A program made the translations under genes and the position numbers. Positions 22,077-36,562 of a DNA stretch of 36,562 nt are shown here, one piece after another (within the stretch, counting starts at the first letter, position 1; each line of letters opens with the position of its first letter). This DNA is from a virus, in the IMG/VR virus record IMGVR_UViG_3300048012_000265, positions 1-36,562 of that record; one strand, given 5' to 3'. The notes under the pieces are model-generated. The model saw only the letters and a list, made by a program, of their open reading frames with translations. It did not search any database and was not told the origin of the DNA.

Positions 22077-24584
22077 TTAAAACCTCATTATACCCATAAT
22101 TTGATTTATAGGAGCAAATGTACCTGTGAGTTTATATGTTCCACCTTTGTATTGAAATACTACACCTTCTGTTGGTGCAATTGCACTGCTTCCACCAATA
22201 GAATTAAGACGAGCAAGATTCTTATTTAGTTTCTCCATGTCTTTCTTAAACTTATCAGGTGATTCCACCGAACTTATCTTCTTGCCTTCAAGTGTTTTAA
22301 CGTGAGAATCAAGTGCTTTTGCAATATCATCACTTCCACCAGCCGCAACAAACCCTTTTACATTCTTTAATACTTCTGCACCCAATTTCAAAAAGATGAA
22401 TTGAAACGGCCACATATTTTCTTCAAACTGTTTTGTAATATCTTCTTTTTCAAACTTGGTAACCCAAGCAAGTAGTTTTGGATGATCAGATAATTCTTTT
22501 TTAATTGTAGTGATTTTGTTAGACTTATCATTATATGCCCAACGACCAATGAGTGCTTCGTATACATTCGAGGGAAATATCTCTTTATTTTTTGTTTGTT
22601 GTTTATCAAGCAAGTTTCTCCACCAAGAATCGTGATACTTCATTACTTTATCGTTATCTTTTAATCTAAATTTGCTTTTAAGTTTATCTATTTTAGCAGA
22701 ATACTTTGCATATGAATCTCCAAATGTTTTACTTTTAGGAAGTTCCACCACAATCGGTGCGTTCAATGAATATCGTTTTTGAACATCTGCGTTTATTTGT
22801 TTCAACATACCTTTAAGCATTCTTGCAGAGTCTTTAAGTTCACCTGTTATATCGTTTCCCTCGGAATCTTCTGATACTGCTTTTCCTGCGGAATCATATG
22901 CCTGTGTTCCGTGGAATACTAACATATCTACATTCTGAGGAATAACATTTTGTGTTGCAGGTGTCATTACCTCTATATTCATAAAACGTTCACCTTCACG
23001 AAATACTTTATTCTTTTGTGCATCTGTAAGACCAGATATAGCAGTTTCTAAATCTTCAACTGCACCTACAAATGCGTCACGAATATTATCAGGACGATCA
23101 GCAAATATACTTGAAAATTCTTTTACATTAGGTGCGGCTGCTCCTGCGTTTTTTAAATGCCCTTGATTTCTTGCAGCCACTAATTCACCATCTTTCCAAG
23201 AAAACATTAAATTTTGTCCATCGAGTTTTTCGGTAACTTCTTTTTCAACATTTAATTCTCCTGCAAGTGACCTACGAATCATTTCTTTTAAATCTCCGAA
23301 TGTTAACTCACGATCATCAAAAGGATGACTCATATGTCCAGCTGCACCTCCTTCTGTGATAATTTTACTTTCTTTGATTGCCTGACCTTCGACTCCTTTA
23401 TCTATTTTGTCTTCGTTTTCTTCATCTTCTACATCAAGTGTATTTCCATCTACATTTTCTTCTCCTGACCTATCTACTTTTCGTATAGATGCTTCTGAAC
23501 CTATAAAGTCTACTAATTTATATCCAGAAGTTTGAGCAACAGAATCTATTACCTCAACCCATTGTTCGTGTGCTGATTTTGATTTTTCTATCGAAATTTG
23601 ATTATTTGCAGTTATTTCGTCTGTTACACCTGCAGGATAAAAAGATACTGCCGGTACGGGTCCTGCGTATTCTTTCCACATTCTATAATCTGCATTTCTA
23701 CTTACTCCGTTTTTACCCACTACATAATCTAAAAGATCATAACCAAGTTGCTGAACTCTTTCCTCACTTTCAGTTTCGTAAACTTTGTTTGGGAAAAAAG
23801 AACCAGGACCGTCATCAACCAACAGAATACCCGATGCGGCTATTGTGCTTACTTCATTCAGTACAATTGAAATTGATTTTGTAAAGTTTGGATAGTTCTG
23901 CAAAAAACTTTCAAATAACTCTTCATTTTCAAATAATGTACTAAACTTCTTGGTAAGATACTTAAATATCTTTTCATCATACCAACCAAACAATTCTTCA
24001 AATGCTTGAATCTTTGTCGTTTTGTCGTGGTTAGGACTTCCCAATAAGTCACGAATACGAGTACCACTAACTTCTTTTCCTAAAACCTTAATGCTTACGT
24101 GTGGTGCTACAATAAAATATCCATGTTCACCGTATGGTTTCAAATCATTTTTATTTTTTTCATACGATTGATAATACGCAGGAGAGCCATCTGCTTTGGT
24201 TGTTTTTAATCTACCCGCATCTTTTTCTCCAAAAATATAAACGACTGCCGTTGTATTTGGATCATACTTCTTTAAAATTTCTTCACACACATATGGATTT
24301 TTTACTTTAGTAACATTCCGAACTCCATGCTTTGTCCATACCATTTTCTTTTCCTTGAAATTCAAGGGACTTTTTGTGGCATCCGTTTTGTCACTAGTTG
24401 CTACATATGCTTTATCAAACTTACCATCCAACCATTTGTATGTTTTATAGTGATGCACTCCTGCTGGTTGAAATCTACCAGGATATATTCCAATAACTTT
24501 TCGTATTGAATTTTCTTGCAATACATCGTTTACAACATACTCAGTTAAATTTTGAGTAAGCAATTCTCTTAGTTCAGTTTTCAC
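22077..24584 (-). CDS. Adenylyltransferase-fold / ligase-like nucleotidyltransferase fusion
   Basis: An 835-aa two-domain enzyme-like protein. Residues 1-25 (MKTELRELLTQNLTEYVVND...) form a capsid-targeting-like helix with LTE and LQE. Residues ~29-210 show a nucleotidyltransferase fold of the NadM/cytidylyltransferase class: IGIYPGRFQP with HH at 44-45 in place of the usual HxGH, YIFGEKD (116-122) and SGTRIRDLL (173-181). From ~411 a second domain starts at GGAAGHMSHPFDD and carries ligase/capping-type motifs: KLDGQN (453-458, motif I lysine), NIEVMTP (motif III), EGVVFQYKGGTYKLTG near the end (motifs IV-V). Function is inferred: nucleotidyl transfer to a nucleic acid or cofactor. GTG start overlaps the previous stop (GTGA). 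Whether the altered HxGH still binds nucleotide is unknown. Confidence 0.75.
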   Translation of the reverse strand: MKTELRELLTQNLTEYVVNDVLQENSIRKVIGIYPGRFQPAGVHHYKTYKWLDGKFDKAYVATSDKTDATKSPLNFKEKKMVWTKHGVRNVTKVKNPYVCEEILKKYDPNTTAVVYIFGEKDAGRLKTTKADGSPAYYQSYEKNKNDLKPYGEHGYFIVAPHVSIKVLGKEVSGTRIRDLLGSPNHDKTTKIQAFEELFGWYDEKIFKYLTKKFSTLFENEELFESFLQNYPNFTKSISIVLNEVSTIAASGILLVDDGPGSFFPNKVYETESEERVQQLGYDLLDYVVGKNGVSRNADYRMWKEYAGPVPAVSFYPAGVTDEITANNQISIEKSKSAHEQWVEVIDSVAQTSGYKLVDFIGSEASIRKVDRSGEENVDGNTLDVEDEENEDKIDKGVEGQAIKESKIITEGGAAGHMSHPFDDRELTFGDLKEMIRRSLAGELNVEKEVTEKLDGQNLMFSWKDGELVAARNQGHLKNAGAAAPNVKEFSSIFADRPDNIRDAFVGAVEDLETAISGLTDAQKNKVFREGERFMNIEVMTPATQNVIPQNVDMLVFHGTQAYDSAGKAVSEDSEGNDITGELKDSARMLKGMLKQINADVQKRYSLNAPIVVELPKSKTFGDSYAKYSAKIDKLKSKFRLKDNDKVMKYHDSWWRNLLDKQQTKNKEIFPSNVYEALIGRWAYNDKSNKITTIKKELSDHPKLLAWVTKFEKEDITKQFEENMWPFQFIFLKLGAEVLKNVKGFVAAGGSDDIAKALDSHVKTLEGKKISSVESPDKFKKDMEKLNKNLARLNSIGGSSAIAPTEGVVFQYKGGTYKLTGTFAPINQIMGIMRF

Positions 24585-25098: not shown

Positions 25099-25452
25099 TC
25101 AGTCCTCAAAATATTCAATAATTTTTCCTGTTTTAATGTGTTGTTTGCAGGCCTTTTTTTTGTCACGATGCAAATGAGGTGCTTTATCAAGGTACTCAGG
25201 TGTGCAATGAAATATATATCCATCAACTATTGGACCAAGATCGGTTTCACCCTCACTATAAATTCCAATGAACTTAAAATCATCTTTTTCATTTTTTAAA
25301 AGTTTCATTGCTAATTGTTTTGCCCAGTTTTCATTTCCACTTTTTGTTGAAGAAAAACTATAACGTGCATGATTTGGAGCCATTTCAATTCTCCAAGTCT
25401 CACCCAACTTATCTTCAAGTATCAATTCATCTAATATTTCGTCAAAGATCAT
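25099..25452 (-). CDS. Unknown small protein between kinase and fusion-enzyme operon
   Basis: A 117-aa soluble protein with no recognised family. It begins with an acidic helix (MIFDEILDELILEDKLGE) followed by a beta-rich domain (WRIEMAPNHARYSFSSTKSG, FKFIGIYSEGETDLGPIV) and a histidine/lysine cluster (HLHRDKKKACKQHIK). The ATG overlaps the kinase stop by four bases (ATGA) and has AAGGGAG in front. Confidence 0.55.
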   Translation of the reverse strand: MIFDEILDELILEDKLGETWRIEMAPNHARYSFSSTKSGNENWAKQLAMKLLKNEKDDFKFIGIYSEGETDLGPIVDGYIFHCTPEYLDKAPHLHRDKKKACKQHIKTGKIIEYFED

Positions 25453-26495
25453 TTTTCTCCCTTGAACTTTAATGTTCTAATTTGGTGGAAATATTTGTTA
25501 AGTTGGTTTCTATCCAACTCTAAACTTTCTACCAGTCTTGATATAATTGCAAGATTCCGTCTTTCATTTAATTTAAATTTTTTAATTACAAATATAGAAC
25601 GAGTTAAATGTCTTTCCAAATCCATAGGTAGAACTACATCTTCCATTGAAACCATATCGAGTTCTTCGTTCATACGATTTCGTGTATCACCACTCTTACT
25701 CATTTTATCGTGTTTCATCATCAAAGTAATCCATTGTTTACCAATAGGATTGCGAATTGGTTTTCCGATAAATCTTGCAGTTGCTTTTAATATAAAAGGA
25801 GCAAGATTAAGTTTTCCTGGTTTTGTTTTGCTTCTTAAATCTTCTGAGTTATCAATGATCGTGAAATTCTGCTTGAATGAACTTTGGAATTTCCCCATAT
25901 TCTTTTGAACATCTTTCCATATAACATCCACAATTTTACGTGGAAGTTTTCTTGCACGAAACGCATTTCTTTGTTGTGCAACTTCAAGTGTTGTATTAAC
26001 AAATACCATATAACAATCATATCCAAGTTTTTCCAACTCTTTCTTTTGTTTTGATATCTTAGCATAATCATCACCAGTTCCATCAATAATTACACCCAAC
26101 CTACCATCCTTGTAATTTTCGTATTGTTTAAGCATAATGTTTTTAGCACGTGACCTAACTGAATTTGGATCGTCACTTGTTATTTTTTGAAAAACTTCAT
26201 CATCCAACGAACCCAAATCTAAACTATGACCTGCTTTTTTTAATAAATACTCAAAGGAACTATCACTATTTACGATTTTTAATCCAGATGATGTCAATGA
26301 CTTTGCTTCAGGTGTCGTATTAAAAACAGTATCCACGACAGCTGATTTACCAGAACCAGGACCTCCTGCTAAAAATACTGCTTTAAGAATACCAGGATCG
26401 TATACTCCCTCAACGAGTGTAAAATATCCTTTGCGAAGACCAGCCTTGATAAGACTTTCTTCTTGGACTTCTTGGTTTTCTTTGGAATTACTCAT
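25449..26495 (-). CDS. P-loop kinase, zeta-toxin / polynucleotide-kinase-like
   Basis: A 348-aa protein with a clear P-loop GGPGSGKSAV (residues 44-53) after a hydrophobic strand, then IIDGTGDDY and a basic lid (ARKLPRKIV), the layout of zeta-toxin and polynucleotide-kinase-type phosphotransferases. Substrate is unknown. The ~130 residues after the kinase core (from FIGKPIRNPIGKQW on) match nothing I know. The short N-terminal extension ends in TLVEG, a possible gp21-type site. It heads a tight, overlapping run of genes leading into the nucleotidyltransferase fusion, and a TATATATTTAT element lies 20-31 bases before the ATG. No Shine-Dalgarno sequence is visible. Confidence 0.75.
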   Translation of the reverse strand: MSNSKENQEVQEESLIKAGLRKGYFTLVEGVYDPGILKAVFLAGGPGSGKSAVVDTVFNTTPEAKSLTSSGLKIVNSDSSFEYLLKKAGHSLDLGSLDDEVFQKITSDDPNSVRSRAKNIMLKQYENYKDGRLGVIIDGTGDDYAKISKQKKELEKLGYDCYMVFVNTTLEVAQQRNAFRARKLPRKIVDVIWKDVQKNMGKFQSSFKQNFTIIDNSEDLRSKTKPGKLNLAPFILKATARFIGKPIRNPIGKQWITLMMKHDKMSKSGDTRNRMNEELDMVSMEDVVLPMDLERHLTRSIFVIKKFKLNERRNLAIISRLVESLELDRNQLNKYFHQIRTLKFKGEK

Positions 26496-26538: not shown

Positions 26539-29139
26539 TTATGCTCCGTAATTTATCTTACTAAATGAACCTTCTTTTTGAATTTCAATAATTTCGTCCA
26601 CCATATCTCTCATTACGTCTAAATGACTAATAACCATGATGAACTCAAACTGCCCCTTTAAATAGGTAAACAGATTAAATACACTACTTATGTTGTCTCC
26701 GTCCAACGAACCCCACCCTTCGTCAATAACAAGGAAATTAGAACGTGGTAAACTACTTACATTGATAAGTGCTACCCGCATTGCGATACTGCTTATGAAT
26801 CGTTCCATACCACTACACATTTCTAATGGCCAATGACGATCCTCGTAAGTAATCTTTGAGTAAATATGTTTTCCATCCATTTCAAGATTCATACCGAAAT
26901 CAACGATTTGAGAAAGTATATTATTTACTTCACTTTCTATACTTGGAATAGTTTTAGAAATAAGTTCATATGATATACCGTCTCGTTTTACAGAATCAAG
27001 ATAAAGTTCATATCCTCGTTTTTTTCTTTCGTAGCTTTTTGCTTCTTCTATTGACGCAAGAATATCTTCATGTTCTTTTTCAACAATTTTTACTTCACCA
27101 AAAAGAGTTTGAAGTTTTTCACTTTCTTCATTTGCTATGTTGTTTACAGATAATAACTTATCTTGAAGATCATCTACTTCTACTTGTAGTTTTTTATTAA
27201 ATTCAATTATGTCCTTACACTCATGATACGAATCAATGTTCTTGTTATTAATTATTATATCTTTTTCAAGTGACTCTATCATACTCGATAGAGCAAGAAC
27301 TTTTGAATCTGCTTCGTTTATTTCAAATGAAGTTTGTGTCATAGTGTTACTTAAATCTTTTAATTCTTCATATTCACTCTCTACATTCTGAAATTCACTT
27401 AATTGCTCTGTGTATATTGCTTTTTGTTTTACGAGTTCGTCTGCGGCTGCTTTGTCTTTATCAAGTTCTTGCTTAGTTTGCTCTGCACTTTCAATTAAGT
27501 TTTTAGAATTGTTTACACAATATGAACACTTCGGATCATATTCGTGATCATCATAATGTTTTAATTTATCAAGTTTTGCATTAACCGAAGTTCTTAAAAC
27601 TGCTAAGTCTTTCTCAACAACCACAACCTCTTCTCTTATTTTAAGAACCTCTACATAATTTTCTTCTACACCAGATAACTCAGAAATTCTTTTTGATAAG
27701 TCTCCTCGTTTATTTACAAGTTCTTTTTTTCGTGCAGACTCTACATCTCTTTGTTCTTCCGCAACTATAAGTCTATCTTCTAAGTTCTTTTTATTAAATT
27801 CTAAATTATCTATGTCAGAACTATCTTCATTAAACGAACAATTCTTAAATTTTGAACTTTTATCTGAAAGAATTTTGTTTATGCGTTTTTGCTCTAGTAG
27901 TGCAACATTAGTTTTACTTTCCTGTTCTGAATATTGTTCAGATATACTGCTTAGTTTTTCGTTTACCTCTACCAATGTTTCATCGAAATTTTCACGATTA
28001 AATCTTTTTAATAAAGCATTTATTTCTTTTATATCTTCAGATGCTGTTGAGTGTAATTGATCAAATATATCAATTCCCATAAATTGAGCAAGTAAGTCTT
28101 TTCTTTCACTCTGACTTTTATCTATAAAAATGGCATTGTTATTTTGTAAACTCAAAGTAGTTAATACAAAGTCATCATAAGAACCCACATGATCACGAAT
28201 AATTGCATTTGTTCCTGCACGTTGCTCTCCGTTTAAAGAAACGGTCTGACCATCTTCGTCTTGTTTCCAAAAATCTACAACAACGGTAACATCTCCATTC
28301 TTTTTTGTGGATGCAGTTCTATCTATGAAGTAGTTTACTCCTGATATTTCAAAATTTAATTTACAATAAAAAGATTCTGTTTGTGTGTTTAGTACATGGG
28401 CTGCTTTGAATGCACGATCACATTTGTCAAATAAACAAAAACTCAATGCACTCATTACACTACTTTTACCACTTGCGTTAGATGCAAACAATCCCATAAC
28501 ACTTTTCATATTTGAAAAGTCAATTACATTTCCATCTCCGTAACTAAACATATTTCCAAACTCAAACTTCTTTGGTTTCCAAATACAATTTTTGAGTATC
28601 TCTTTAATTACCAACTTTTCATTTACTTCTTTGTTAATATCAAGAGCAGTTTTTATTTGCTCTTCATCAACCACAAAATTACGAGTTAGATAATCTTCAA
28701 TTAAATCATTTTGAATCTGTACAAGTGATATATCACCGAAATCAAATTTGTTGTCTCGATCAAATTTTTTTGCTTCGGAAATTGCATCGCATCGTGTAAC
28801 ATTTAAATCTGTTATACTCGTTTGCTTTCGTATTTCTGCAATAATCTCCTTTGTCTCGGTTGCAGTTGTATTATACACCTTTACACGCAATCTTGCTTTG
28901 TTTGGTAGTTTAGATAAATCACTAACACACTTTCCATCACGAACCGTAACCGTATAATAACCATATTCGTTATGTACATTATATTGTTGGTGTGTTCTAT
29001 TTTCCAAATCCCATAAAACATAACCATGTCCAGATGGCAACTCTCCGTGGTTTTGTTGTATCATACTACCCGAATAAACCACAACCGGTTTTTCGGGATT
29101 ATGTCTTGTTACTTTTATGTATGTTTCTTTATCTTCCAT
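26539..29139 (-). CDS. gp46: SbcC/gp46-type ATPase carrying the C-terminal part of SbcD/gp47 at its N-terminus
   Basis: An 866-aa protein made of two parts. From about residue 190 it is a Rad50/SbcC ATPase: P-loop ASNASGKSS (219-227, first glycine replaced by alanine), long coiled coil with a CSYC hook (538-541), signature CSGME (775-779), Walker B FLVIDEGWGSLD (802-813) and ISHLD. Residues ~15-185 are not SbcC: VVVYSGSMIQQNHGE (19-33) and GHGYVLWDLE (38-47) are the strand-turn that follows the last metal motif of SbcD/Mre11/gp47, followed by what should be the cap and SbcC-binding helices. Its other half lies upstream, beyond a glycosyltransferase gene. Role: end resection and recombination-dependent replication with gp47. 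The ATG overlaps the glycosyltransferase stop by 11 bases. Confidence 0.88.
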   Translation of the reverse strand: MEDKETYIKVTRHNPEKPVVVYSGSMIQQNHGELPSGHGYVLWDLENRTHQQYNVHNEYGYYTVTVRDGKCVSDLSKLPNKARLRVKVYNTTATETKEIIAEIRKQTSITDLNVTRCDAISEAKKFDRDNKFDFGDISLVQIQNDLIEDYLTRNFVVDEEQIKTALDINKEVNEKLVIKEILKNCIWKPKKFEFGNMFSYGDGNVIDFSNMKSVMGLFASNASGKSSVMSALSFCLFDKCDRAFKAAHVLNTQTESFYCKLNFEISGVNYFIDRTASTKKNGDVTVVVDFWKQDEDGQTVSLNGEQRAGTNAIIRDHVGSYDDFVLTTLSLQNNNAIFIDKSQSERKDLLAQFMGIDIFDQLHSTASEDIKEINALLKRFNRENFDETLVEVNEKLSSISEQYSEQESKTNVALLEQKRINKILSDKSSKFKNCSFNEDSSDIDNLEFNKKNLEDRLIVAEEQRDVESARKKELVNKRGDLSKRISELSGVEENYVEVLKIREEVVVVEKDLAVLRTSVNAKLDKLKHYDDHEYDPKCSYCVNNSKNLIESAEQTKQELDKDKAAADELVKQKAIYTEQLSEFQNVESEYEELKDLSNTMTQTSFEINEADSKVLALSSMIESLEKDIIINNKNIDSYHECKDIIEFNKKLQVEVDDLQDKLLSVNNIANEESEKLQTLFGEVKIVEKEHEDILASIEEAKSYERKKRGYELYLDSVKRDGISYELISKTIPSIESEVNNILSQIVDFGMNLEMDGKHIYSKITYEDRHWPLEMCSGMERFISSIAMRVALINVSSLPRSNFLVIDEGWGSLDGDNISSVFNLFTYLKGQFEFIMVISHLDVMRDMVDEIIEIQKEGSFSKINYGA

Positions 29140-30061
29140 TCGTTACAATTTCTAAAATTTCTTCCCCTACCTCGTAATCAGTAAGATATGGATTGAGATG
29201 CACATGACCTTTATTTGGAAAATACACATTAGGTCCTAAAAACGGAGTTCTTTTTTCTAAGTTAGAAAAATCTCTTCCTTGCTTTAACCAATTAATTCCC
29301 TTGGGACCGAACATCTGATGAATGTAATCAGTTGTAATAATAGTTTTTGTCCCGATTGCCGATGACATATTTGTAATACACCCTTCAGCACCAATTACAT
29401 AGTCGCAATTTTTAATTAAACTTGCAGTAAAAGAAAATTTATTTGTAGAGTTTATCTCGGGATAGTGCTTGGAAATTTTTTCCTCTATACCAAGTGCAAG
29501 CAACAAAACATCTGAGTTAACCTCTAGTGGATTTATTATATCATAAATATTTCGTTTGCCACTTCCATATCCTGATCCATCTTCCGCACCTTCTGCTTTT
29601 TCATATTCATCTTCTGTAAACAAATAACTTTTTCGTTCCCAATCTACTTGGTATCCTACTAAAATTACATCATCTTCTAATTCATTTATATTTTTTAATT
29701 CTTGAATACTTTTCTTTATAGAATAATCAAGATGTGGGTTTGTATAAATTTCAAAGGTATCGTCGAAGTTTTTAATATTGCACAACCTTTGAAGTTGAGA
29801 AACGGCCGATATATATGGATCAATTACAAAATCCGTATCAATTAGATTGTAAACTACATCATATTGGATATCAGCAGATTCCTTGTAAAACACCCCATCA
29901 ATATATGGATTGGCCATCATCAACTCAATTGGTTGTAAAAAAGAAATGTCATAATGAACTACGCAGTTTGGGTTTTCTTCTTTCAGTTTTTTTGCAACAC
30001 TACTCGCAAACAAAGTATCACCGATTTGTATGTTTCTACATCTTATGAGTATATTAGTCAT
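29129..30061 (-). CDS. Family 9 (heptosyltransferase-like) glycosyltransferase
   Basis: A 310-aa protein. The N-terminus (ILIRCRNIQIGDTLFASSVA) and NPYIDGVF, plus NCDYVIGAEGCITNMSSAIG near residue 235, match the GT-B fold GT9 family, which moves heptose or related sugars in LPS synthesis. Acceptor and sugar are unknown; altering host surface sugars or the virion are options. It is inserted between the two halves of SbcD and overlaps both neighbours by 8-11 bases. ATG at 30061 is taken; a GTG one codon upstream is possible. Base composition is like its neighbours, so any transfer is not recent or came from a similar genome. Confidence 0.8.
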   Translation of the reverse strand: MTNILIRCRNIQIGDTLFASSVAKKLKEENPNCVVHYDISFLQPIELMMANPYIDGVFYKESADIQYDVVYNLIDTDFVIDPYISAVSQLQRLCNIKNFDDTFEIYTNPHLDYSIKKSIQELKNINELEDDVILVGYQVDWERKSYLFTEDEYEKAEGAEDGSGYGSGKRNIYDIINPLEVNSDVLLLALGIEEKISKHYPEINSTNKFSFTASLIKNCDYVIGAEGCITNMSSAIGTKTIITTDYIHQMFGPKGINWLKQGRDFSNLEKRTPFLGPNVYFPNKGHVHLNPYLTDYEVGEEILEIVTNGR

Positions 30062-30758
30062 CACTAACGCACCAGCCTTCTAGTTTATATTCATCTATCT
30101 TACTCTCAGGGATAAATCTATGCTCAGTTTGATACTCTTGTAAAACTTGATACTTGTGTATATCCCCAAGCATAACAATATCATATCCATTAAACATAGG
30201 TAGATTAATATCACCACCCATAACTACATATCCTATATCAGTTCTACTTCTTTTTACCGCACCGTGATATACTGCAATCTTGGTTTTAATAGAATCATCT
30301 TTTATATCAGAACCTTTGATATATTCAACAGGATCTTCAAATATCCCAAAAACTCCAATAGCAACATCACCTAATTTATATACACCAGTATCTTTTAAAT
30401 AAAACAAATTGTCATCGTCCATCATATCAAGTATAGGTGATAGCACATCAAGACGATCAGGATTATTCAAATTGCAATCGTGATTTCCTGCAATTACAAT
30501 TGTTGGGTGAAGTTTAGAACACTCTCTTAAAAATGAAGATATTTGATGAATCAACTCTGGACTCATTTCTGTTTTGGCATGAGCAATGTCTCCACCGATA
30601 AAAATAATTGCGTTATCAAGATTATCTTCTTTTACTTGTTTGTAAAAGTTTTCAAATACCAATGAATATTCGTTGTGTCTTTTTACGTTTCTTATATGAA
30701 TGTCTGCGAGATGATATACTTTTTCAACATTCTTTAAATTTGTTTTTAGTTCATGCAT
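30054..30758 (-). CDS. gp47: Catalytic half of SbcD/gp47 nuclease (split gene)
   Basis: A 234-aa protein with all five phosphoesterase metal motifs of SbcD/Mre11: D19/H21 (LADIHI), GGD (55-57), GNHD (91-94), YHG (164-166) and GDIH (198-201). It then diverges into EYQTEHRFIPESKIDEYKLE and stops, whereas T4 gp47 is 339 aa and continues with an SGSxxQQNxGE strand and the cap domain. Those missing parts are found at the N-terminus of the SbcC-type protein further along. So the gene is either split with two working pieces or partly decayed. The catalytic residues are intact and the stop overlaps the next start, which favours a working piece. Confidence 0.85.
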   Translation of the reverse strand: MHELKTNLKNVEKVYHLADIHIRNVKRHNEYSLVFENFYKQVKEDNLDNAIIFIGGDIAHAKTEMSPELIHQISSFLRECSKLHPTIVIAGNHDCNLNNPDRLDVLSPILDMMDDDNLFYLKDTGVYKLGDVAIGVFGIFEDPVEYIKGSDIKDDSIKTKIAVYHGAVKRSRTDIGYVVMGGDINLPMFNGYDIVMLGDIHKYQVLQEYQTEHRFIPESKIDEYKLEGWCVSDD

Positions 30759-31675
30759 AACTTTTGCTTCATCAATTCACTAAAATCAAGAAGTTCTGCA
30801 TTTCTAATTTTATGAATTATTTTATTAAACCCAATGTCCGCCGCATCGTCATTTCCCATTTTTACTAATTTGACACGAACATTCTCGTTCATCATTGTTT
30901 CGGAAATTTGTAATGCGTTTTTAAATGCATCGTTATCAAGAACAATACATATTTCAGAAACTCCATGTTCAACTAATTTTGTTTTTAGTTTACTTGGAAT
31001 ATTCTTCCCCAATAGTGGAATTGCGTTTCGACGAATTGCCATAGCATCAAATACACCTTCACAAAAAATAAGTGGTTCGGAGAAATCAATTTGATTCTCA
31101 AACACCACAACATCTTTACTGACCGGTGGGTTTTTGTATCGTAAATACGCAGTTCCTGTAAAATCTCTTGCTATAAAATAATTTAAATTATTGTCGCAAT
31201 CATATGATGGTACTATGATTCTATTCGCATAATCACCACTTTCACAATATCCAATATTATATCTTTCTATATCATAAGAAAATATGTTTCTTTGTCTTAG
31301 ATAATTAAACGCAGCCTTTGATGCTCTTGTTTTTTCGGTGTCATACTGCAATGATGTAAATTCATAAGGAAGGTGAACTTTTAACTCTTCTTCTTCGGTT
31401 TGTTGTGTGCTTTTTGGTATCTTTACGATTCTAGATAATTCCGTAAGATATTGTGGAGCAACATTCATCTTTTTGAATAAACCATAAATTGATCTACCTT
31501 TTGCATTTGTATCAATCCAACTTTGCCAACGTTGCGTAGATAAATTAATAGCAAGTTTAGGTTTTCTATGATGTGAAAATGGACACATGAACATAGCCTC
31601 GTCTTTAGAGACGATTTTTCCAGTTCCTAATACTTTTTGTAGAAGATTGAGAAGTTTTTGTTCAGAGATGCCCAC
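30746..31675 (-). CDS. gp61: DNA primase, T4 gp61-like
   Basis: A primase of 309 aa (TTG 18 bases further upstream would give 315). The Toprim domain is clear: FCEGVFDAMAIRR and IVLDNDAF. Near the N-terminus CPFSHHRKPKLAINLS and then RWQSWIDTNAKGRSIY align with the zinc-finger of gp61/DnaG, but three of the usual four ligands look lost (only the first cysteine is kept; S, S and D/T replace the others). T4 gp61 is 342 aa and makes pentaribonucleotide primers with the gp41 helicase. The GTG at 31675 overlaps the RuvC stop as TAGTG and is preferred over the leaderless-looking TTG. The stop overlaps the gp47 start by 13 bases. Confidence 0.85.
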   Translation of the reverse strand: MGISEQKLLNLLQKVLGTGKIVSKDEAMFMCPFSHHRKPKLAINLSTQRWQSWIDTNAKGRSIYGLFKKMNVAPQYLTELSRIVKIPKSTQQTEEEELKVHLPYEFTSLQYDTEKTRASKAAFNYLRQRNIFSYDIERYNIGYCESGDYANRIIVPSYDCDNNLNYFIARDFTGTAYLRYKNPPVSKDVVVFENQIDFSEPLIFCEGVFDAMAIRRNAIPLLGKNIPSKLKTKLVEHGVSEICIVLDNDAFKNALQISETMMNENVRVKLVKMGNDDAADIGFNKIIHKIRNAELLDFSELMKQKLCMN

Positions 31676-32202
31676 TATTTCAAAGAATACCAATGATACA
31701 AAGATGCGACTACAGCATCAAGCATATCGTAGTTTTTTTTATCATAATTATTCTTAGAATTATAGTGAATAAAGTCGGATAAATCAAGCATATTTTCAAG
31801 GTTGCACTTTACAAATGTTTTACTATCTAATCCTTTTTCTCTGCTTTTTCCAAATACCCCTTTACGCATTGTAGATACATTTATGTGTTGTACTTCTAAA
31901 TTATACAATTCTTCTACAACATAACTTATTATGGCATTACACTTTGCTAATTTTACAATAGTCTGTTGACTCGTTCTTCCCCCACCAAATCCACTAAGTG
32001 AATCTTCCACAATAACAACAAAAGGTTGCAGTTGAATTTTTTTCAATTCGTCTGCAACCTTGTGTGCTTTGTTTCTTATGGAGATTTCTTTATGAACAGA
32101 AATATATCCTGCTTGAATTATTTTCTGTTCAGAAGATGAATAACAATAACCTATTGTAGTTGAACTAATGTCTAGTCCAAGAGATACTTTTATATCTTGC
32201 AT
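31675..32202 (-). CDS. ruvC: RuvC-like Holliday junction resolvase
   Basis: A 175-aa RNase H-fold protein of RuvC size (E. coli RuvC is 173 aa). Acidic active-site residues are in place: D11 in LGLDISSTTIGY, E66 in VIVEDSL, and D159/D162 in NYDMLDAVVASLYHW. A basic glycine loop (FGGGRTSQQT) and STMRKGVFGKS match the DNA-contact part of phage RuvC-like resolvases. It probably takes the place of T4 endonuclease VII (gp49). It starts the recombination-replication cluster, with the primase start overlapping its stop. No Shine-Dalgarno sequence is obvious before the ATG. Confidence 0.85.
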   Translation of the reverse strand: MQDIKVSLGLDISSTTIGYCYSSSEQKIIQAGYISVHKEISIRNKAHKVADELKKIQLQPFVVIVEDSLSGFGGGRTSQQTIVKLAKCNAIISYVVEELYNLEVQHINVSTMRKGVFGKSREKGLDSKTFVKCNLENMLDLSDFIHYNSKNNYDKKNYDMLDAVVASLYHWYSLK

Positions 32203-32799: not shown

Positions 32800-32817
32800 A
32801 AAAAAAACTCTAAGAGT
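32800..32817 (-). terminator. Weak terminator after FG-GAP/dockerin gene
   Basis: A short stem (ACTC / GAGT with a three-base loop) overlaps the stop codon and runs into a run of nine T on the minus strand. The stem is weak, so termination may be partial. Confidence 0.45.
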
Positions 32818-35800
32818 CGTATTTTATCAAAAAATTTATAGGATAGTTTGGAACTATCTTAATAGGTGAACCAAGTTTTGCAGTCATTACCAAGTCAGGA
32901 CCATCATATAAACCAATAGTAGTAGCAAATGGTGCAAGATAACTACCTGTTGTATCAGTTTTATCATTTTCATCATAATCTAAGAAATCCTGCATAATTC
33001 GTCTACCTCTATCTTTTCCCGTCTTTATATCCAAATACTGAATAATTTGGAATGGTTTGTATCGTGTTATAGCATCATCAATTGGATTAATTAAGCCGTC
33101 AACTAATGAAGTTCCTTTGCGACCTACAAAGTACCTAGCAAGAAGTTTTGCGTCATTGGCAGTAACTGCACCGTCACCGTCAATATCTAATCCATCTGCA
33201 CCCATATTAAAAATAGTATCTATTCGTTCAAGTATCTTTAACTCTTCTTCTGGATTTAATACATTATCTTTTGTAATATTCATAAGTGTATTCATTAAGA
33301 TGACATCTTCCGACTCACTTAACAATACATCCTCATTTGGCCACTTTTTATCTTGTTCAAGCACCAAAGAATCTCGTACTTCTTCGTCATCACTTGATTC
33401 TACTACTATTTTTCTAAATGTACCCATTATGTATCTATAAATGTAAGATACATCTAGTATTGTAAATTTCTTATCACCTGTTACATCAAAAGGAATATCA
33501 GAATATGTCACGGATGTCGGATTTGTACTAATATTAAATTCGTTTGGATTTACTTTACACAATATTTCATTCTCATAAATTGAATTTACTCCGTCAAATA
33601 AAATTTCGAATCCTCTGCGACCACCCCGTGTAAGCATTTCTTTAAAATAATTTCCAAGTTCCGTTATTACTGCAATTCCATTTTTGTAGAAAATGTTTCC
33701 AACATGGATTTTAACATTATCTCTTATTGTTCTAATATCGTAACTAATTATTTTTCCCTCTACGAATATATCTTGCTTTTCTAAGTTACCCCAAACGATA
33801 TCACCGGATGAAGTAAATACATGAGAACAACCATCAAATGAAACAATAGATTCTTCACCAAATCCCTCAATCGAGTCGATTGGCCAATCACCAACAATAG
33901 GTTCACCTACGAATATAAAATCAGAACTTAGTGCAACAGATGTACCATAACTTCCCATCACTCCATTTTTTTGCTTAATTGTTTTTATGTTTTTTATTTT
34001 TTCAAGAGTATTCTTATTTGTTATTTTGCAATAGATTGCAGTTCCTTGAATACTATTTCTGTGGATATAATATATAAATTCAACCTCTTCATCTGGGTCG
34101 AATCTATGACCCAATACTTTTAAATAGAAAATTACATAGTCTCCATCATATTCAGTTTTATCACGATATATACCACGGGTAAATGTTCCATGATCTCCAT
34201 CGACCAAACTTTCTTCGTCGGAAAGAAAAGATGCTTTGATTTCAAAATCATCAAGTGATTCCATTGACAATGCGTCAATTGAAGCAACATTTATTTTAAG
34301 TTTCAAATCTACAAAATCGTCACCAATAAATTCATGCTCAAACTTAGTAAACATAGACTCACCTACAATAAAAGAAGTTTCTTCGTTGTTTTCAGCACCA
34401 TGTGAAAAATCTGGTATGACAAAACTTTTTCCATTATTAATTATTGAAATTTTTGTTTGTTCAAGGCACGGTGATCCAATTAACAAATCTTTTCCTATCA
34501 TAGAAAGACTACTTCCAAACGAACTAGAATATCTTCTTTCATCATCGTCATCCTCGTATATTTTTCGTATAAACTCAATTGAACTTTCCTCTATTGAGTA
34601 AAAATATACAGAACCTGCGTTAAAATCTTTCTTGAAAATACTATTGAAATCAGAATCCGAATAAATTCTATCTCTTGAGTCACCTATAAACAAATACCTA
34701 CCGTTTGTCTCAAGTGTAATTCCAAACTCATGCTTCTTTGGTTCTTTATATGTAAACGGATATTTTACCTGTTCTTGTCTTTCTTGTGGAGTAATCGGAG
34801 TTGGGTTAATTGAAAAGTTAATGGCTGCAGGTGTATCAACTAAAAAATTTCCATCATACCTTCCTATATATAAAACATGATCACCATATGGAAGATTCTC
34901 CAGTTTTAATTGTTCAGTCAATTCAACCCGACCACCGTGAAAAATCCTACTACTATACAAGTCTTCACCAGAACCAAATACTTCATTTAATCTCCATATA
35001 AATCCCTGCGATGTTTTTTTATCAATTGATTTATTTTTTACATCAATTGTAATTGAATTTTTATTTATATTAAAGTTTATGTTGTCAAAAGAACTTGACA
35101 TATTTACTTTATTTCGGTCATAGTTGTAAGTGCCGGTTCTTGTAATTTTTTGAGTATACACCCACTCATCACAAGAAACATCCTGTTTTGGTCTTTTTCT
35201 AAAAACAAAAACTTCCTGATTATCTGTATATGGTGTTGATGAAATAAGTGTGTTTCCGTACAATTTTACTTTTTGACCAAGCATATCGGTTCCGGGTTGT
35301 CGTATAATAGTTACGAGTTTCCACATGACATCACCCTCACCATAATGAGGTGTATATCTATCCTCGTCAAACTTATGAAATCTACTAGTAGGCATTCCTA
35401 AGTCATTTCCATAGTAACTCAAGGTTTCATCTTTAAATGTTGCAATTTCATAATCATCGCAGATGTCTTCACCTTTTTCTGAAAAATAAGTCATTGGTGT
35501 TTCGTGTGGTGATGCGGATTGTATTTTCCATCTGTATATGGTTTCATTCAATTCCTTAAGTTTATCGCATACAGGAAAACCTAAGAAGTTATTTGATTTT
35601 TCATTAAAGCATAAATCATCGTGCGAGTCTGATATTCTATACCAAGGTGATGTTTTATCTCTAATAGACTTTTCAAAAATGTAAATAGCACCCTCGCAAT
35701 GATACATACCAGGTGCTCCTATTGCCATATAGTTGCCACTAATTGAAATTGATGAACCGAACTCAGATCCGGGTGTACCTTCTAATATATTTACAAGTCC

Positions 35801-36562
35801 CCAATGTTCAGTTCCTCCTTTGTTTATATCGTAAATAAAGACATGACCTTGTCTTGCCTCGTTACAGGCAGATGTAATGTGTGAACGAGAACTTCCGATT
35901 GCACAAGTACCATTTTTTAATTCAACCGCACCACCAAAATTATCATTTTGTGAATAATCGTCAGACGCAATTAAGTTTCCCAACTCTGTGACTAAAAAAC
36001 CATTTGAGTTTTGTTTTGACTCGTACAACAAACCTTCTTGTGTAAATGGGCATTTAAATTTTCTTATTCTTCTAAACTGCTTTTTAGATGGATCATATTT
36101 AAACAAAGAAGCACTACCTGTGAGAAAATCTGTTGGAGAATCTTGATCCATTGGACTACCAGATAGCACATAGTCACTTTCTGCAACTATATTTTTTCCA
36201 AATGATAATGTCTCAGAGTCAAACTTTGGTTTTAAGTTGGGAAATTCGATTTTATCTGAGTTTGCGTGTGAAATTTCAGTAATTTCATTAAACGAAGAAT
36301 TGCTTACAACCAAGTTAGTGCAACCATCATCTTCTATTTCAATTGTACCATATGGAGAACTGTAATCTTTTATTTTGAAATTATTTGGCTTAATTGTTTC
36401 ACCAAATTGATTTTTTGTAAATTCTATTACAAGAACATTATCTGTTAATTTTCTTTTCTCGTATCTATCGGTATCGTCTCTCAACACATCTCCATCGTCT
36501 CCGTCTGTTTTGTAATGACCTGTCTGTGATCCAAATACCATTAATGGGTTTTTAATATCTTC
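32810..36562 (-). CDS. Giant FG-GAP propeller and dockerin-like protein (5' end beyond window)
   Basis: At least 1250 codons; the frame is open to the window edge (EDIKNPL precedes the internal ATG at 36541, which has no Shine-Dalgarno sequence), so the true start is outside. Repeated blades such as NFGGAVELKNGTCAIGSSRS, FGSSISISGNYMAIGAPGM and YGTSVALSSDFIFVGEP are FG-GAP (integrin-like beta-propeller) repeats. Near the C-terminus two dockerin-type calcium loops occur: DVTGDKKFTILD and DIDGDGAVTAND followed by LLARYFVG. Such proteins bind surfaces or partner proteins, so a tail-fibre, baseplate or receptor-binding role is likely. The final ~40 residues (GSYLAPFATTIGLYD ... NFLIKYDS) resemble the closing segment of other phage structural proteins (from memory). 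The gene ends at a weak terminator. Confidence 0.8.
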   Translation of the reverse strand, partial: EDIKNPLMVFGSQTGHYKTDGDDGDVLRDDTDRYEKRKLTDNVLVIEFTKNQFGETIKPNNFKIKDYSSPYGTIEIEDDGCTNLVVSNSSFNEITEISHANSDKIEFPNLKPKFDSETLSFGKNIVAESDYVLSGSPMDQDSPTDFLTGSASLFKYDPSKKQFRRIRKFKCPFTQEGLLYESKQNSNGFLVTELGNLIASDDYSQNDNFGGAVELKNGTCAIGSSRSHITSACNEARQGHVFIYDINKGGTEHWGLVNILEGTPGSEFGSSISISGNYMAIGAPGMYHCEGAIYIFEKSIRDKTSPWYRISDSHDDLCFNEKSNNFLGFPVCDKLKELNETIYRWKIQSASPHETPMTYFSEKGEDICDDYEIATFKDETLSYYGNDLGMPTSRFHKFDEDRYTPHYGEGDVMWKLVTIIRQPGTDMLGQKVKLYGNTLISSTPYTDNQEVFVFRKRPKQDVSCDEWVYTQKITRTGTYNYDRNKVNMSSSFDNINFNINKNSITIDVKNKSIDKKTSQGFIWRLNEVFGSGEDLYSSRIFHGGRVELTEQLKLENLPYGDHVLYIGRYDGNFLVDTPAAINFSINPTPITPQERQEQVKYPFTYKEPKKHEFGITLETNGRYLFIGDSRDRIYSDSDFNSIFKKDFNAGSVYFYSIEESSIEFIRKIYEDDDDERRYSSSFGSSLSMIGKDLLIGSPCLEQTKISIINNGKSFVIPDFSHGAENNEETSFIVGESMFTKFEHEFIGDDFVDLKLKINVASIDALSMESLDDFEIKASFLSDEESLVDGDHGTFTRGIYRDKTEYDGDYVIFYLKVLGHRFDPDEEVEFIYYIHRNSIQGTAIYCKITNKNTLEKIKNIKTIKQKNGVMGSYGTSVALSSDFIFVGEPIVGDWPIDSIEGFGEESIVSFDGCSHVFTSSGDIVWGNLEKQDIFVEGKIISYDIRTIRDNVKIHVGNIFYKNGIAVITELGNYFKEMLTRGGRRGFEILFDGVNSIYENEILCKVNPNEFNISTNPTSVTYSDIPFDVTGDKKFTILDVSYIYRYIMGTFRKIVVESSDDEEVRDSLVLEQDKKWPNEDVLLSESEDVILMNTLMNITKDNVLNPEEELKILERIDTIFNMGADGLDIDGDGAVTANDAKLLARYFVGRKGTSLVDGLINPIDDAITRYKPFQIIQYLDIKTGKDRGRRIMQDFLDYDENDKTDTTGSYLAPFATTIGLYDGPDLVMTAKLGSPIKIVPNYPINFLIKYDS
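33120..33490 (-). other. Two dockerin-type calcium-binding loops
   Basis: The encoded segments DVTGDKKFTILD and DIDGDGAVTAND follow the EF-hand-like D-x-x-x-D-x-x-x-x-x-x-D spacing of type I dockerins, each followed by a helix with R/Y (IYRYIMG, LARYFVG). They lie about 100 residues apart in the C-terminal part of the giant protein. Confidence 0.7.

Follow-up and report, generated by a model that had tools for sequence, protein, structure and literature searches.

Predicted recurrent fission of a viral SbcD-SbcC fusion gene at one hairpin loop, with a putative glycosyltransferase gene in the gap

The DNA analyzed here, hereafter the window, is the whole 36,562-nucleotide (nt) stretch of the IMG/VR virus record IMGVR_UViG_3300048012_000265, and our subject is its gene for an SbcD/SbcC (Mre11/Rad50) type nuclease, which lies there in two pieces; L-numbers (L107, L172 and so on) designate the loci of relatives. 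Three overlapping open reading frames (ORFs) were located on the minus strand: an SbcD half (30054-30758, 234 amino acids, aa), a predicted glycosyltransferase (29129-30064, 311 aa) and an SbcC chain (26539-29139, 866 aa). The SbcD half is constituted of a metallophosphoesterase part (residues 1-204, 30147-30758), which ends just past the motif GDIH (30156-30167), and of an extra C-terminal tail of 30 residues (30057-30146), without counterpart in fused relatives and resembling the tail of L107. The glycosyltransferase gene begins with a GTG at 30064, giving 311 aa, or with an alternative ATG at 30061, and its start overlaps the stop of the SbcD half (30054-30064) by 11 or 8 nt, respectively; such a stop/start overlap was present at this junction in 24 of the 24 loci listed. 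Its own stop overlaps the start of the SbcC chain by 11 nt (29129-29139). According to alignments with relatives, the SbcC chain opens with an extra N-terminal head of about 18 residues (29086-29139). It continues with the C half of SbcD (nuclease-core strands, cap and SbcC-binding region, 28570-29085), and the remainder is the SbcC/gp46 ATPase (26539-28569), in which a P-loop and a CxxC zinc hook were recognized by eye. An earlier note on this DNA had described a complete glycosyltransferase gene between the two halves, with overlaps of 8-11 bases, and the ORF coordinates bear this out. The glycosyltransferase is probably translated by coupling through these overlaps.

The 234-aa protein was assigned to SbcD on the basis of five phosphoesterase motifs already read in the earlier note and found again here (ADIH, GGD, GNHD, YHG, GDIH), of a match to Pfam Metallophos (E 9.2e-9, 36.4 bits, cut-off 21.5), and of its coverage of positions 19-222 of the SbcD-like family phrog_100 (E 7.8e-18). 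Positions 223-382 of the same family are covered by residues 17-179 of the SbcC chain, scanned as a 190-aa piece (E 8.7e-7). The family is thus shared by two chains, and the window locus encodes no whole SbcD in a single polypeptide. The SbcD continuation is indeed N-terminal on the SbcC chain, as the earlier note had proposed, and this second match supplies what the proposal had been staked on, a resemblance between residues 15-185 and the C-termini of SbcD. Two parts of that description were amended. The SbcD half was said to stop at GDIH; the SbcD match holds, and the 30-residue tail that follows had been missed. The displaced part was said to be the cap and the SbcC-binding region; both are there, preceded by nuclease-core strands (YSGS...).

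Other comparisons were of unequal strength. The N-terminal heads of split SbcC proteins matched phrog_100 in 13 of 14 cases at E up to 1, and a Pfam scan of the 14 heads returned no SbcD match. When all of the 866-aa protein was scanned against PHROGs, SbcC-type families alone were among the matches listed. A profile of fused relatives matched Thermotoga maritima Mre11 before as well as after the cut (second stretch, E 0.0065), and the cut site falls in this structure in a short hairpin immediately past GHIH. A head-only profile reached solved Mre11/SbcD chains at E 0.13-0.41, behind an unrelated zinc-finger chain at 0.034. The SbcC part was recognized as an SMC-like ATPase with zinc hook by phrog_77 (E 3.7e-43) together with the CxxC and the P-loop; TIGR00618 (sbcc) was matched at E 2e-19, far under its cut-off, and Pfam SMC_N and Walker B also under theirs. 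Judged from these comparisons, one chain has the putative metal-binding motifs, and the other has the rest of the nuclease strands together with the cap and the entire ATPase. The two chains may together form an active nuclease. Also, the SbcD half of the window matches NCBIfam NF053861 ("anti-phage protein", 994 positions) at 1-102, with E 2e-8, far under the cut-off.

The gap protein of the window had no PHROG or NCBIfam match, and its best Pfam match was DUF354, under the cut-off (E 0.0058). Its AlphaFold2 model (predicted template-modelling score, pTM, 0.79) was compared to solved structures with Foldseek. The best match was 3tov (E 1.2e-8, TM-score about 0.5-0.6; E 0.37 by sequence), and ranks 1-15 were all a GT9 enzyme and heptosyltransferases. 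The model therefore identifies the gap gene (29129-30064) as a putative GT-B, GT9-like glycosyltransferase. We also considered that it could be a widespread mobile gene, and rejected this idea: in a scan reaching close relatives alone, 20 of 20 viral loci with a relative had it at this very site, none was found in the phage collection at E 0.01, and none of 34 candidate stretches in genome contigs was confirmed.

Intact versions of the nuclease gene are frequent. For 372 loci plus the window, 350 could be classed, 246 as fused and 104 as split; among the others, no N half was found in four and no C motif in 19. One locus without N half, L084, is a split form cut by the contig end. In terms of distinct sequences, there were 148 fused forms, 35 split forms with an insert (L107 and 34 of window type) and 7 split forms without insert. 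Fused relatives are more distant, mostly 35-48% identical, and in the first set their ORFs measure 1051-1070 aa, except for the open-ended L085 and the 1202-aa L108. The Microcystis phage Mel-JY01 carries such a single SbcD-SbcC ORF, and two contigs from bacterial metagenome-assembled genomes are fused as well. In 245 of the 246 fused forms, the stretch between GDIH and the next conserved strand is at most 75 nt. The nearest fused relatives of the window are distant (42% in the SbcC part). These data agree with the suggestion of the earlier note that a gp47-gp46 fusion was ancestral and was later interrupted, and the uninterrupted gene that it proposed to search for in relatives is found in quantity. 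They also correct one of its statements: the C half of SbcD does sit on SbcC, but nothing would have moved there, because it was already joined to SbcC in the fusion. A full-length gp47 gene elsewhere in related genomes, which would have spoken against the division, was not encountered in five contigs of the window clade (115-170 kb, possibly partial), where the one Metallophos match per contig is the split gene; phrog_100 was matched by both parts in one of these contigs, by the N part alone in one and by the C part alone in three. Two other fused genes have features of their own. In Thermus phage phiLo, the 866-aa "endonuclease subunit" (L109:4412-7012) combines phosphoesterase and SMC/zinc-hook matches in one ORF and appears to be another SbcD-SbcC fusion. 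Immediately behind the catalytic GNHD, the fused 1387-aa ORF of L320 (3366-7529) appears to harbour an intein (matches to Pfam Intein_splicing, E 9.6e-9, 35.7 bits, cut-off 35.8; LAGLIDADG_1 E 2.8e-4, 22.2 bits, cut-off 23.1).

The division seems to have arisen repeatedly. In a tree built on the SbcC side, from the cut onwards (50 rows, careful method), five changes between split and fused states were counted, all forced by supported branches, and a second tree (54 rows, quick method) again gave five. The split lineages are the window clade, L107, the group of L095, L131, L132, L133 and L201, L168, and L172. L107 belongs to LR756508, a 484-kb uncultured phage; it has a long branch, which joins different fused rows depending on the tree (the L206 group or L225), and a search of IMG/VR for relatives of its SbcD half found none. 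A second phosphoesterase is present in LR756508 at 446780-447334, remote from the split gene. The nearest fused relatives of the N and C halves agree for L168, L172, L095 and L132, and differ for L201, L107 and the window. A recent event is illustrated by L172 and the fused L321, a close relative with the intact gene, which share 88.9% and 86.6% nucleotide identity on the two sides of a 167-nt insert. As read from these trees, the SbcD hairpin loop after GDIH has been cut at least five times.

The content of the gap varies between lineages. In L107, a protein of 305 aa is encoded in the gap. It has a domain that resembles the TnsA endonuclease (Pfam E 5.8e-6, 27.2 bits, cut-off 26.5) and may be a homing endonuclease, and the start of its gene overlaps the SbcD stop by 11 nt, like in the window. 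The three other split lineages have no gene between the halves, which overlap by 4 or 14 nt or are separated by 51-80 nt. One frame of the 80-nt gap of L172 (6703-6783) stays open until a stop that overlaps the beginning of SbcC, and the stretch may be the terminal remnant of a gene since lost. As a relic of an endonuclease, this frame had no match in NCBIfam and none by tblastn in phages.

The split proteins also have extra ends. Beyond GDIHxxQ, split SbcD halves continue for about 30 residues in 31 distinct tails, which are variations on V.E.EL..Y...G.E, and the split SbcC chains open with extra residues of the pattern Y.[VI][KR]. When tails were compared between lineages, 11 of 13 pairs scored better than shuffled sequences at p < 0.01; for the tails of the window and L107, the score was 51, against 21.0+-4.3 after shuffling. 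For heads, this was true of 5 pairs out of 13, none involving the window or L107. The alignments thus suggest that most lineages have related tails of about 30 aa, which the fused forms lack, with the exception of L359. This locus, known from a single contig, is the only fused gene found to have an uncut long loop, of 144 nt, at GDIH, upstream of 5013. The loop resembles the tail plus head of L172 (p 0.0005), L132 and L168 (p 0.001), L095 (p 0.002) and, weakly, L201 (0.024), and no resemblance was seen to those of L133, L107, L044 and the window.

A structure was predicted for L133. Both of its halves lie in one frame, and the locus was therefore modelled as a read-through, with three stops read as an artificial linker and 34 further sequences aligned (mean predicted local distance difference test, pLDDT, 82; pTM 0.71). 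The tail is predicted to form a strand (214-218), a helix (219-228) and a second strand (231-237), and the head a strand (266-271) followed by the SbcD strands, with a pLDDT of about 80-94 in tail and head elements and under 50 in the linker (240-260). In Foldseek, the whole model matched Mre11/SbcD (best E 9.9e-12). According to this model, the L133 tail and the SbcC head would fold as one mini-domain that is cut before its last strand, and such end pieces probably help the halves to dock.

On these grounds, we consider it likely that the window carries one outcome of a recurrent fission of the SbcD-SbcC fusion into "genes in pieces", probably begun by mobile endonucleases, and that a glycosyltransferase gene now occupies the slot. 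The ancestor would have been a single protein of about 1060 aa, with the SbcD nuclease followed by the SbcC ATPase. The hairpin loop just past GDIH would then have received an insertion that broke the reading frame. A tail would have been added to the SbcD half and a short head to the SbcC chain, and these two may fold together as a beta-alpha-beta/beta mini-domain and dock the halves, as predicted in the relative with a similar cut. The recurrence of the cut at this loop, at least five times, and the relatedness of the tails point to a mobile element that brings the tail, and the TnsA-like gene in the gap of L107 suggests free-standing homing endonucleases as the agents. In the window clade, the slot would since have been taken by the glycosyltransferase gene. 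We advance more tentatively, as slightly more doubtful than credible, the idea of a phage mobile element that carries its own protein splint, namely a tail and head mini-domain that clamps the halves so that the repair nuclease survives.

Several observations weigh against this interpretation. An endonuclease gene is present in the gap of only one of the five split lineages, and its homing is itself presumed. The window tail is not distinguished from shuffled sequences in two of its four pairs, with L095 (p 0.17) and L172 (p 0.29), and the window head was significant with no other lineage (none of four pairs). Searches for the tail beyond this gene, which are weak as tests, found nothing: tblastn in phages with the tail alone recovered only its own record, and a comparison of the tail alignment (too variable for a scan) with the Aeromonas phage Aeh1, run without positive control, gave nothing. 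Also, the folded model is that of another lineage, and it supports docking without proving it, because a chain joined by reading stops as linker favours contact and the strand pairing was not read out.

Fission without a mobile endonuclease is the alternative that fares best, and we still hold it to be unlikely. Here, ordinary insertions and deletions would have broken the gene at a tolerant hairpin, genes would have entered later, and the tails would be new coding sequence selected for docking. The three gene-free lineages speak for it, as does the window insert, which is GT9-like and not an endonuclease. However, chance extension does not explain the likeness of tails in 11 of 13 lineage pairs, and one gap does hold a TnsA-like nuclease gene. 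Far less probable is that the split form is ancestral and the fused forms result from repeated joining. Change counts alone give no direction, but a split ancestor whose state was never regained would require 15 re-fusions against 5 fissions; moreover, a cut inside SbcD with the C half joined to SbcC presupposes a fusion, and the hairpins of fused forms are short, as in T. maritima Mre11. Even less credible is a rejoining of the halves by splicing, through an RNA intron or a split intein in the protein. Split inteins are reportedly known in fractured genes of aquatic viruses, and what appears to be an ordinary intein sits at another place in the fused gene of the relative L320. Nevertheless, Rfam at the gathering score gave no match in the window, L107, L095 or L172, no intein family appeared in the Pfam scans of the window chains, and tail plus head, at about 50 residues, are too short to make up an intein, whose size is about 130 residues or more.

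The order SbcD half, glycosyltransferase, SbcC chain was conserved in 58 of the 58 clade loci having both halves. These derive from the first set (104 loci classed, 61 split and 43 fused) after removal of three split loci of other kinds (L084, L095, L107), and many of them overlap on the same contigs. Selection was estimated by the ratio of nonsynonymous to synonymous substitution rates (dN/dS) over 24 loci and 276 pairs, pairs without usable dS being dropped; the values are rough because the median dS was 0.7-1.6. Piece by piece, the median dN/dS came to 0.07 (SbcD half, 235 pairs), 0.15 (tail of this half, 150 pairs), 0.17 (glycosyltransferase, 250 pairs), 0.24 (head extension, 242 pairs), 0.06 (SbcD part of the SbcC chain, 195 pairs) and 0.09 (SbcC, 265 pairs). 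These low ratios indicate selection on each piece, as distinct from joint function. A decaying gene, sequencing error or misassembly, which the earlier note had also thought less likely, can be dismissed almost entirely because of the shared layout across contigs and the purifying selection on the pieces, the halves moreover covering SbcD without loss at the cut, even though the source is a 36.6-kb virus fragment and one of the 58 loci, L016, has a broken SbcC end.

Parts of this arrangement have precedents. In the Aeromonas phage Aeh1, mobE splits nrdA into a "genes-in-pieces" ribonucleotide reductase, described as fully functional (PMC2988022) and as having halves that cooperate (PMC2988022; PMC3267527), and the mode of assembly of the split enzyme was presented as an open question in a 2010 review (PMC2988022). 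As in the window, a core enzyme gene is divided and another gene lies between its parts, and our comparison with T4 NrdA showed extra ends on both Aeh1 halves. The window tail resembled the Aeh1 tail at p 0.01, a likeness that is suggestive at most because this was the best of six tails tried. Going by its title, a later study of the Aeh1 fragments reportedly found assembly through domains derived from the mobile element. The differences are that another gene is concerned, that one case is known there against at least five cuts here, and that the window insert is a putative glycosyltransferase gene. Dassa is said to have described in 2009, in environmental sequence, fractured genes with split inteins in the order half gene, free-standing endonuclease gene, half gene; intein pieces are present there and none here, where the halves would dock rather than splice. 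The T4 topoisomerase 60/39 (mobA) and the Aeromonas phage 43A/43B are described as split by or next to an endonuclease insertion, with enzymes that still work (PMC2988022); the available part of that review describes no conserved tail and head, unlike the case here. Finally, Mre11/Rad50 fusions, with the nuclease followed by the ATPase, are reported from Mimivirus and as common in aquatic viral samples (PMC3175470). They are uncut, unlike the window gene, and are likened to our fused forms by description. Among the matches listed in a search of the open-licence literature, no title reported a split SbcD-SbcC fusion.

Beyond what the earlier note described, the larger and new finding is that fission recurred at a single hairpin and is accompanied by related extra ends. 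This amounts to a natural repeated experiment, in which a two-domain machine appears to have been split at one loop and in which fused, split-empty, split-with-endonuclease and split-with-cargo states are known, including a recent pair with 87-89% nucleotide identity around the insert. The short tail and head suggest a natural docking pair and make the question of split-enzyme reassembly testable. If true, the idea of a splint element would add to introns and inteins a third means of inhabiting an important gene without killing it, and the slot could afterwards lose its content or receive cargo, for instance a glycosyltransferase.

The neighbourhood in the window is that of a contractile-tailed phage, with tail sheath, portal, terminase, RuvC-like resolvase and primase. 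Two of its large ORFs, 32810-36541 (1243 aa) and 22077-24584 on the minus strand (835 aa), had no PHROG match at E 0.001. The primase-like gene lies directly upstream of the split gene and outside it, on the minus strand (30746-31693; phrog_47 DNA primase, E 9.3e-33), and such a gene is found upstream in Mel-JY01 too. The gene after SbcC (25449-26495, minus strand) encodes a P-loop protein that matches Zeta_toxin (E 1.5e-10) and AAA_33.

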